From: Halorubrum sp. BOL3-1
GTDB lineage: Archaea; Halobacteriota; Halobacteria; Halobacteriales; Haloferacaceae
Assembly: GCF_004114375.1 (NCBI RefSeq)
Contig: NZ_CP034692.1
Span: 1,178,001 to 1,242,000 of the forward strand
Length of the DNA stretch: 64,000 bases
Direction of reading: 5' to 3'
The notes under the pieces are model-generated. The model had not been told where the DNA came from, ran no database searches, and saw only the letters and a program-made list of their open reading frames with translations. Of this stretch, positions 41,238 to 59,403 are shown one piece after another. Each line of letters starts with the position of its first letter. Position 1 is the first letter of the stretch. The position numbers and the translations under genes were made by a program.

Positions 41238-41350
41238 GACCGCACGGCCTCGCGCCTCCCCAGCCTCGGCGAGCGGGCCGCGCGGACGACGCCGCGCGGC
41301 CCGCTCGCCTCCCTCGCGTTCGCGTCGCGCTCTCGCGAGAGCACGACGCG
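41238..41350 (-). repeat. dispersed structured element, copy A (minus orientation)
   Basis: Read on the minus strand: a 15-bp palindromic stem (41321-41350, one G-U wobble in this orientation), a linker with GCGAGGGAGG, a perfect 18-bp hairpin with 6-nt loop (arms 41268-41285 and 41292-41309), then the conserved CGAGGCTGGGGAGG (41255-41268), GCGAGG and GTGCGGT. It lacks the third hairpin and tail of copies B-D. It sits in the 219-bp gap between the DUF63 gene and the lipoprotein gene. Confidence 0.75.
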
Positions 41351-48299: not shown

Positions 48300-48895
48300 G
48301 GATGCCCCTCGGAGGTTCCGATGTACGCCGTACCCCTCCGTTGCGACAAGAAGTCGTCGGTAACACTCTCGGGGCTCGTTGAACTCTGCCGTGGCGAGAT
48401 ACCCGGACGGGGGCGATCGTGGATGAGTACGAGTGTCACGATTCTATGTAAATGGCTGTGCGGTGGTGCGTGACTGCGAGCGGCCGGCAGGCCGCGAGCA
48501 GCACGCGCGAGGGAGTCGAGCGGTCGGAGCGAAGCGGAGACCGATCGACGAGGCTGGGGAGGCGTGAGGTGCGGTGCTTCGCGGTGAGGGGCGGGACTCG
48601 AAGCCCCAGCCGCGAGGCGGTGTCCGTGTCGGATCTCGATTTATAAACGAAACCACGATCGCACAGCCGATCGCAGGGGTCGTAGAGGAGTTCGCCGCGG
48701 CACCGTCGATCACGGACGAACGGCCGCCACCAGCGCTCCGTGTTCGGTTATAAATGACGGGCCAACAGGTCCGCGTCGCGCGTTCCGGCCATCGGTCGAG
48801 AGCCGGTCGTCGACGAGCAGACGTTCACTTCGAGAACCGTCCGAAGGGAGTCCCCGCCACCGAACGGCGAGTCCGAGACCCGACCGTCGAGGGCG
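48300..48895. other. 596-bp intergenic stretch between two trkH genes
   Basis: No gene is supported here. It contains structured repeat copy B (48464-48623) and two TATA-like sites (TTTATAAAC at 48640-48648, GTTATAAATG at 48747-48756) far from any start codon. Nothing else with coding bias or tRNA structure is visible in the remainder. Confidence 0.6.
48464..48623 (+). repeat. dispersed structured element, copy B (plus orientation)
   Basis: Hairpin P1 48468-48506: 5-bp stem, 1-nt bulge, 4-bp stem CTGC/GCAG, tandem GA/GA internal loop, 6-bp stem GCGGCC/GGCCGC with GGCA loop. Linker GCGAGGGA. P2 48515-48549: GTCGA/TCGAC and CGGTC/GACCG arms around a GGA/GGA loop and a GCGAAGC mini-hairpin. Linker CGAGGCTGGGGAGG and GTGAGGTGCGG. 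P3: GCGG/CCGC and GGGGC/GCCCC (48581-48613) with GGGACTCGAA in its loop. Confidence 0.78.
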
Positions 48896-57921: not shown

Positions 57922-58037
57922 ATCTGACCTGACGCGGGCGGCGGCAAAGGTCTACCGTTCGACCGCAGGGTTGCCGGACGAACGCGTTCGGGAAGAGATT
58001 TGAACGAGCTAACGATTAATGAGCAACCGAGGCGGGG

Positions 58038-58360
58038 GCGCGTGCCTCCGAGCGTGCCGCCGAAGGCGGCCGCGAGGAGCGCGCGCGAGGGAGTCGCAAG
58101 CGATTGGGCGACCGAAGGGAGCCCGGAGCGAGCGACGAGGCTGGGGAGGTGTGAGGTGCGGTCGCGGTGCGGGGTGGGATTCGAAGGGGCAGTCGCGAGG
58201 ACGACGCAGGCGACACAAGCACCGCAGGGAGTGAGCGAAGCGAACGACCGAGGAGCACAGCGAGTGTGCGTCGTCCTCGCGGCTGGGGCTTCGGCGGTCT
58301 CGGTCACAGAGCCACTTCCGGCGGAAAAATCACGTACAGCCGAGCGACCGGGGCTTCGGC
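58038..58360 (+). repeat. dispersed structured element, copy C (plus orientation, with nested insertion)
   Basis: P1 58040-58084: GCGTG/CGCGC with one G-U, bulged C, CTCC/GGAG, tandem GA/GA, then a 9-bp stem with one bulge and GAA loop. Linker GCGAGGGAG. P2 58093-58136: GTCGC/GCGAC outer stem and GGGC-ga-CC-gaa-GG-ga-GCCC inside. Linker CGAGGCTGGGGAGG at 58137-58150. P3 region with GGGATTCGAAG. The tail CGTACAGCCGAGCG...GGCTTCGGC (58333-58360) matches copy D at 26 of 28 bases. A hairpin-bounded insert lies at 58194-58281. Confidence 0.78.
58194..58281 (+). repeat. nested hairpin-bounded insertion inside copy C
   Basis: CGCGAGGACGACGCA (58194-58208) and TGCGTCGTCCTCGCG (58267-58281) form a perfect 15-bp inverted repeat around 58 nt that contains another GCGAAGC. 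Copy D lacks this stretch and reads straight from CCGCGAGG into the GGCTTCG tail, so it looks like an insertion of a mini-element into copy C. Confidence 0.7.
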
Positions 58361-58471: not shown

Positions 58472-59011
58472 ATGACAGACACCGAAACCGCGACGGTCGG
58501 CGGCGGCTGCTTCTGGTGCGTCGAGGCCGCGTTCAAGGAACTCGACGGCGTCGAGAGCGTCACCTCCGGCTACGCCGGCGGCCACGCCGACGATCCGAGC
58601 TACCGCGAGGTCTGTTCCGGCAACACCGGCCACGCCGAGGTCGTTCAGGTCGAGTACGACCCCCAGGCGCTCTCCTACGAGGACATTCTGGAGATATTCT
58701 TCACCGTCCACGACCCGACGCAGCTCGACCGGCAGGGTCCTGACATCGGTAGCCAGTACCGCTCTGTCGTCCTGACCCACGACGACGAGCAGCGCCGGCT
58801 CGCCGAGGAGTACGTCGCGGCGCTCGACGAGGAGGGCGGCTACGACGACGCGGTCGTCACCGAGGTCGAACGCCTCGAAACGTTCTACCGCGCCGGGGAG
58901 AAACACCAGAACTACTTCGAAAGGAACCCGGCGGACGCCTACTGTACGATGCACGCCCAACCGAAGGTCGACAAGGTCCGCGAGCGGTTCCGCGAGAAGG
59001 TGTCGGCATAA
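58472..59011 (+). CDS. msrA: peptide-methionine (S)-S-oxide reductase MsrA
   Basis: 179 aa. 'VGGGCFWCVEAAF' holds the catalytic Cys13 of the GCFW motif; 'GYAGGHADDPSYREVCSGNTGHAEVVQVEYDP' is the family's substrate region. The resolving Cys may be Cys16 or one near the C-terminus ('AYCTMHAQP'). It repairs oxidised methionine. The gene lies between two inverted repeat copies (C and D) whose tails face it. Confidence 0.95.
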   Translation: MTDTETATVGGGCFWCVEAAFKELDGVESVTSGYAGGHADDPSYREVCSGNTGHAEVVQVEYDPQALSYEDILEIFFTVHDPTQLDRQGPDIGSQYRSVVLTHDDEQRRLAEEYVAALDEEGGYDDAVVTEVERLETFYRAGEKHQNYFERNPADAYCTMHAQPKVDKVRERFREKVSA

Positions 59012-59403
59012 TTGCTTCTCATTCGGTATCGGCGGCGCGAATTGGCTCGTCGCTGACGCGGTGAACGGCGCCGAAGCCCCGGCCGCTCGGCCGTACGCGA
59101 CTGTTCTCGTCACGACCCAGACCGTCGAAGCTCCGGCCGCCTCGCGGCTGCCCCTTCGAGTCCAACCCCTACAGCACCGCAGCCTCACGCCTCCCCAGCC
59201 TCGCGGTTCACGCTCTTCGAGCGCTCACCGCGTCCCTCGCGCGTGCTCCTCGGCCGCGGGGCGGCCTCGGAGGCACGCGCCATCGCACCGCGGGCCGTTT
59301 TTACTGTATCGGCCGATTCCGAAGGACGACGCGAGCCCGCCACCCGTCCCGTAGCACCCCCTCGGCACAACCTATTCCCTCCCGCCGATCCAACGCTCCA
59401 CCG
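59012..59403. other. 392-bp intergenic stretch carrying repeat copy D
   Basis: Holds the structured element (59070-59279) and, beyond it, a spacer with no recognisable gene before the metallophosphoesterase start at 59404. An open frame through the repeat (59061-59354) has no family resemblance. Confidence 0.6.
59070..59279 (-). repeat. dispersed structured element, copy D (minus orientation)
   Basis: In minus-strand orientation: P1 59241-59278 is GCGTG-c-CTCC-ga-GGCCGC, CCC loop, and the matching arms. Linker GCGCGAGGGA. P2 59202-59232 is CGCGGT/ACCGCG, GAG/TGA internal loop, CGCTC/GAGCG with GAA triloop. Linker CGAGGCTGGGGAGG at about 59190-59203. P3: GCGG-tg-CTG pairing with CAG-CCGC, GGACTCGAAG in the loop. 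The tail (59070-59097) equals that of copy C but for two bases. Confidence 0.78.

Follow-up and report, generated by a model that had tools for sequence, protein, structure and literature searches.

A GCGAAGC mini-hairpin in an abundant intergenic repeat of Halorubrum with variable hairpins and a conserved G-rich core

Repeat copies in the window and around msrA

The window analysed here is a stretch of 64,000 nucleotides from the genome of Halorubrum sp. BOL3-1. It holds copies, designated A to D, of a dispersed non-coding repeat that measures roughly 150-450 nt and has no gene inside (Table 1). The P2 hairpin of copy B reads directly as GTCGAGCGGTC-GGA-GC-GAA-GC-GGA-GACCGATCGAC; the GCGAAGC mini-hairpin to which the preliminary description drew attention is present exactly, and the GAA caps that it gave for copies C and D, GGGC-GA-CC-GAA-GG-GA-GCCC and CGCTC-GAA-GAGCG, are likewise as described. 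Folded as single-stranded DNA, P2 of copy B reaches -10 kcal/mol (z -2.8), against -7.6 kcal/mol (z -1.7) for the reverse strand. The 3' module of this copy, GGGACTCGAAGCCCCAGCCGCGAGG, stands where most copies have GACTCGAAGGGGCAG, and by comparison of the letters it appears to be a P3 that was shortened or flipped. Of 30 genomes, 5 have an element at the place of copy B, with position and orientation always the same. Copy A (41248-41309) and the copies at 1299467 and 1971614 of the same genome form a subtype with a P2 of the form GGCG...CGCC, and the usual 3' part is absent from copy A and from the copy at 1971614.

Table 1. Features of the repeat copies and of msrA, in coordinates of the window
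Feature	Position	Strand	Basis and details
Core, copy A	41248-41267	-	Core match
P2, copy A	41268-41309	-	Plain GC hairpin; no GAA, no G-A loops
Left end and P0/P1 hairpin, copy B	48460-48508	+	Fold; 5' end GCGGTGG at 48460
Outer helix P0, copy B	48466-48508	+	Fold
Inner helix P1, copy B	48480-48495	+	Fold; GA/GA on its sides
P2 hairpin, copy B	48515-48549	+	GCGAAGC mini-hairpin 48529-48535 within GGA/GGA internal loop
Conserved G-rich core, copy B, GAGGCTGGGGAGGCGTGAGG	48550-48569	+	Core matches
3' module, copy B, GGGACTCGAAGCCCCAGCCGCGAGG	48593-48617	+	Compared with other copies
TTTATAAAC in right-hand tail, copy B	48640-48648	+	Reading and tail units
Left end, P0/P1 and P2, copy C	58032-58136	+	P2 58093-58136, GAA cap 58114-58116
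Core, copy C	58137-58156	+	Core match
P3 module, copy C, GAAGGGGCAGTCGCGAGGACGACGC ... GCGTCGTCCTCGCGGCTGGGGCTTCGG	58182-58294	+	Right-end motif 58281-58294
msrA (peptide methionine sulfoxide reductase)	58474-59010	+	Named from reading frame, not family search
Copy D, core to right-end motif	59071-59202	-	Core match; core 59183-59202, right-end motif 59071-59084
P2 and left part, copy D	59203-59281	-	P2 59203-59232, CGCTC-GAA-GAGCG

The gene msrA lies between copies C and D, which point towards it from both sides, and the same converging pair occurs in 15 other Halorubrum genomes. In three of these 15 (L235, L238, and L240), the adjoining flank is inverted with respect to msrA, and the breakpoint falls at an element; the flank on the other side has no match, so that these arrangements fall short of proving a simple inversion between the two msrA copies. 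Both P2 hairpins of the converging pair are identical to each other in L238, and the same is true of L240. In seven genomes the joint from the upstream flank to msrA comprises 70-100 nt and the element is absent, these element-free sites being too diverged in the relatives for exact placement of the junction. The elements near msrA are 73% identical although msrA itself is 93-96% identical. At trkH, where genomes G010 and G022 share about 99% identity, the elements of the two are the same.

Distribution, layout, and the G-rich core

Within the 3.67-Mb genome itself, 117 cores were recovered at no more than one mismatch, against none with a reversed-pattern control, and the 20-nt core gave 8-193 matches in each of 51 other Halorubrum genomes, again with reversed controls at zero; the element is thus found in all 52 Halorubrum genomes searched. 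Across haloarchaea, 12 of 86 genera carry any copy, and the named core matches come mostly from Halorubrum and also from Haloparvum, Halorussus, Halosimplex, and Halobellus. Exact matches to the core were absent from the viral sequences of IMG/VR, and 2 of 72,556 plasmid records contain it; the 92 exact 13-mer cores of the genome all lie on its main contig and none on the other three. No exact core lies in a stretch of about 380 kb (G000:C3:2929044-3309368), for which the expectation is about ten. The detailed copy set comprises 101 copies at up to three mismatches from about one third of the genome. Where gene context was available from a simple gene caller, 97 of 98 copies proved intergenic, and these 98 show no strong orientation relative to gene direction.

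What is conserved in the family is the G-rich core GAGGCTGGGGAGGYGTGAGG together with a layout of hairpins, which runs from a left end GCGGTGGCGCGYGCC through the P0/P1 hairpin, a variable P2, and the near-invariant core to P3, a long hairpin that ends in GGCTGGGGCTTCGG and is often followed by tandem tails of 51-69 nt. The left boundary is sharp: over 81 aligned copies the information content climbs from 0.16 bit to 1.15 bit on entering the first base, and no conserved bases adjoin the boundary in the aligned copies. Neither the shared terminal inverted repeats nor the usual target duplication that characterise MITEs were seen on inspection of the aligned ends. The right-end motif also occurs in tandem, as five 51-nt units at G000:C3:1417646 and as five 57-nt units in another species (L273, 1040-1268). 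TATA-like hexamers are enriched eightfold (17% of copies of the genome against 2.1%) at a distance of about 13-15 nt upstream of the left end; a similar TTTATAAAC is present in the tails, and the TATA-like sequence perhaps reflects a target preference. A two-hairpin insert with the linker TCGTCAT(C/T)(A/C)CGA and variable stems occurs 9 times in the 1.24 Mb that were examined, each time inside the element (G000:C3 near 75726, 845887, 1511170, 1573973, 1687613, 1696531, 2022650, 2777133, and 2794387), at fixed points that mostly lie 145 nt past the start of the core.

When copies were located from their 5' ends without use of the core, 114 of 120 contained it with at most two mismatches; each G position is unchanged throughout these 114 copies or deviates in no more than a few, and variation is mainly confined to positions 5, 14-16, and 18. 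Constraint on the G-rich core is the most likely account of this pattern, and the core could equally well be a protein site in RNA or in double-stranded DNA. A G-A motif at the base of P1 was recorded in 120 of 125 parsed copies, a parse that itself demands something near the motif, and it is commoner there than in P2.

Caps, stems, and homogenisation

The oligonucleotide d(GCGAAGC) is an exceptionally stable and nuclease-resistant DNA mini-hairpin with a Tm of about 78 C, and GNA and GNNA loops closed by G-C pairs have similar stability as DNA (PMC4686876); the unusual stability attributed to the mini-hairpin of copy B is therefore backed by the literature. The further statement that its relatives keep the GAA cap fared less well. 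Copy A has neither GAA nor G-A loops, and among 189 parsed P2 hairpins (83 from this genome and 106 from other haloarchaea, chiefly Halorubrum) 77 (41%) fold with a GAA cap and 117 (62%) with a GNA cap, and 61 (32%) contain the complete GCGAAGC; most of these were gathered via the core from related copies, so the counts are not independent. The remaining caps include AAC, GAC, ATC, TATA, TTTA, and more, and the G-A internal loop is missing from many P2 hairpins, for example GTCGGCTCGGCGCTTATAAGCGCCGAGCCGAC. The free variation at caps and G-A loops that the preliminary description named as speaking against its reading is largely what is observed, 59% of the hairpins being without GAA. Random triplets would yield 1.6% GAA and 6% GNA, far below what is found, and the preference is real, yet it does not amount to a constraint. 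We infer that GAA is a favoured DNA cap and not a letter of a recognition code.

The composition of the loops also bears on the nucleic acid that folds. The 178 distinct P2 hairpins contain 184 loops, 141 of them of 3 nt, with 104 GNA, 67 GAA, 7 GNNA, and 3 GNRA. Stem cells of the element number 1301 Watson-Crick, 26 G.T, and 11 A.C, giving 97% Watson-Crick and 1.9% G.T of 1338, a low level of wobble that could partly reflect a GC-rich genome. Because the loops are mostly 3-nt GNA and there is little G.T pairing, single-stranded DNA is favoured over RNA, and the balance, to which the lack of strong orientation to genes and of an Rfam match adds, is an indirect one. The leaning of the preliminary description toward a single-stranded DNA stage thus gains indirect support.

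Stem sequences turn over fast and base pairing is kept. In a 35-nt class of P2, the share of paired cells is 96%, compared with 82% upon shuffling, and 7 of 11 pairs have two-sided changes. This turnover takes place at shared positions: of 33 loci in other species for which both flanks were found here, 24 show a copy in the corresponding gap, a share inflated by the choice of regions that carry copies, and 21 of these have the same orientation and 3 the opposite, an agreement that the choice does not inflate. The elements at matching places are nevertheless no more alike (67.1% identity) than unmatched ones (67.4%, p 0.59), and the types of P1 and P2 are independent of each other (p 0.66). A diagnostic base, G in CTCGAAGG and A in CTCAAAGG, stands at 65:2 here and ranges from 1:79 to 97:4 elsewhere, with a variance 24 times binomial; its near fixation in each genome is a signature of concerted evolution. 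Taken together, shared places, unmatched identity, per-genome fixation, and uncorrelated P1 and P2 point to concerted evolution with swapping of hairpins. Haloarchaea are known to undergo gene conversion (PMC4056108). One duplicated pair aside, identity between nearest paralogues within the genome does not exceed about 95%, and its median is about 87%. The copies at G000:C3:602955 and 735103 are identical over 210 nt and alike upstream, which suggests a larger recent duplication.

Explanations, related elements, and significance

The reading that we favour, and to which we give about an even chance, is that P2 of copy B is an interchangeable hairpin module of a largely resident, transposase-free hairpin mosaic resembling the palindrome-associated transposable elements (PATEs), in which hairpins are exchanged between copies. 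The G-rich strand would fold as single-stranded DNA, whether during replication, during repair, or by extrusion, and hairpins with stable GNA triloop caps would display the unpaired core for a protein of the host. Copies would exchange whole hairpins by ectopic recombination or gene conversion, with homology supplied by the conserved linkers, and the arms would in this way stay complementary. The element would then behave as an old transposase-free element, of the PATE type, that by now mostly stays in place.

Repeated insertion in a fixed orientation at preferred sites could mimic such conservation of place, and a somewhat unlikely alternative is that the element is still mobile and re-inserts at preferred intergenic positions, with matching places holding unrelated copies. 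The seven msrA junctions that lack the element, the filling of the place of copy B in a minority of genomes, always in one position and orientation, the patchy presence across genera, and the enriched TATA-like sequence just upstream are all consistent with it, but no target duplication or conserved junction was seen in the aligned ends, and the distance between nearest paralogues argues against recent bursts. It is unlikely, too, that the element is first of all a chromosomal single-stranded DNA structure of fixed place, in which the core between stable DNA hairpins would be bound by a haloarchaeal protein, possibly as a two-tetrad G-quadruplex in molar potassium, with stems swapped by gene conversion and a role in recombination, replication, or chromosome organisation.

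A structured non-coding RNA, with each copy transcribed, the G-rich core binding a protein or acting catalytically, and the stems varying by compensation, appears distinctly unlikely. Compensatory changes in stems around an invariant unpaired core are a classic RNA pattern, and the excess of G.T over A.C cells gives a weak strand asymmetry in wobble; against this, triloops dominate and GNRA loops are rare, the copies have no strong orientation to genes, and the upstream TATA-like motif, besides being confined to 17% of copies, would place the start within P0. At gathering score the sole Rfam match in the window is to tRNA, and at E<=5 the best that copies C and D offer is a chance match to CRISPR-DR36 (E 4.6). 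A promoter at the 5' end of the element was rejected on the frequency and distance of the TATA-like motif. GCGGTGGCGCGTGCCTG bears a likeness to the beginning of human 7SL RNA/Alu, which was set aside as coincidence, since no SRP family was found.

We regard as improbable an upkeep of palindromes free of selection, in which template switching during replication would repair hairpin arms in a functionless repeat: the near-perfect Watson-Crick arms, and the flipping of hairpin tips and inner parts of P3 in some copies (1041889, 2640016), accord with it, but it leaves the invariant unpaired G core in nearly all copies unexplained. Least likely, and for a Y1 enzyme resident in the genome largely refuted, is movement of the REP/RAYT or IS200/IS605 kind, in which a Y1 HUH transposase recognises a single-stranded hairpin; hairpins near the ends, unseen terminal inverted repeats, DNA-type loops, and TnpB-type genes of IS605-like elements in every congener would suit it, but, contrary to the earlier expectation that HUH/RAYT genes follow the repeat in number, Y1_Tnp and copy numbers are uncorrelated over 52 genomes (rho -0.04, p 0.79), as are those of TnpB (rho 0.02), 11 genomes without detected Y1_Tnp nevertheless carry 15-127 copies, no conserved bases adjoin the left end, and the repeat ends border none of 20 TnpB/Y1 loci in a non-exhaustive sample of five genomes. 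A search for IS91-type Y2_Tnp gave no match and carries no weight, as control genomes were silent too. An origin from an IS605/TnpB guide RNA was likewise rejected, TnpB and repeat numbers being unrelated.

The family shares features with several known classes of repeats. REP and REPIN sequences with their RAYT transposases are high-copy hairpin repeats that lie almost solely between genes, and high copy number and intergenic hairpins are found here as well; unlike them, the element is several times longer, does not conserve its hairpin sequence, and has copies unlinked to Y1 number. The RU/ERIC-type repeats of enterobacteria are fairly uniform in sequence, whereas this element keeps only its core and layout. 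The RU/ERIC-type repeats are intergenic and structured, about 100-170 bp long, and regarded as small mobile sequences (PMC2759123). Non-coding, mostly intergenic, and scattered hairpins with no known enzyme are also seen in the double-hairpin and repetitive hairpin-forming elements of mitochondria (PMC10085805, PMC2800124). Neighbouring hairpins, intergenic location, and scattered presence or absence would fit these double-hairpin elements, a likeness in architecture and distribution; they are organellar and smaller, whereas the repeat is a larger mosaic of archaeal chromosomes with a conserved core.

The transposase-free mosaic that we favour comes closest to the PATEs and SMRs of Haloquadratum walsbyi, which have palindromes near their ends and unseen terminal inverted repeats; the ends of PATEs are similar to IS605-type transposons in the genome that carries them (PMC3119063). 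The Halorubrum element is, like them, haloarchaeal, without terminal inverted repeats on inspection of its aligned ends, too short for a transposase, palindromic near its ends, heterogeneous in sequence, and a target of small nested inserts. Unlike PATEs, its ends have no IS605-type match at the 20 loci compared, and it has an invariant G-rich core, genus-wide shared places, and lineage-wide homogenisation.

The GCGAAGC hairpin of copy B thus leads to an abundant intergenic repeat family of Halorubrum, of which text searches of the literature, for the core sequence or for such repeats in this genus, found no description, and whose members are located at rearrangement breakpoints around msrA. 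Should a protein bind the core, the element would represent a new class of structure site in archaeal chromosomes. More generally, shared positions combined with near-complete turnover of stems and genome-wide homogenisation would allow ectopic gene conversion to be read naturally from the roughly one hundred loci per genome of these polyploid haloarchaea.
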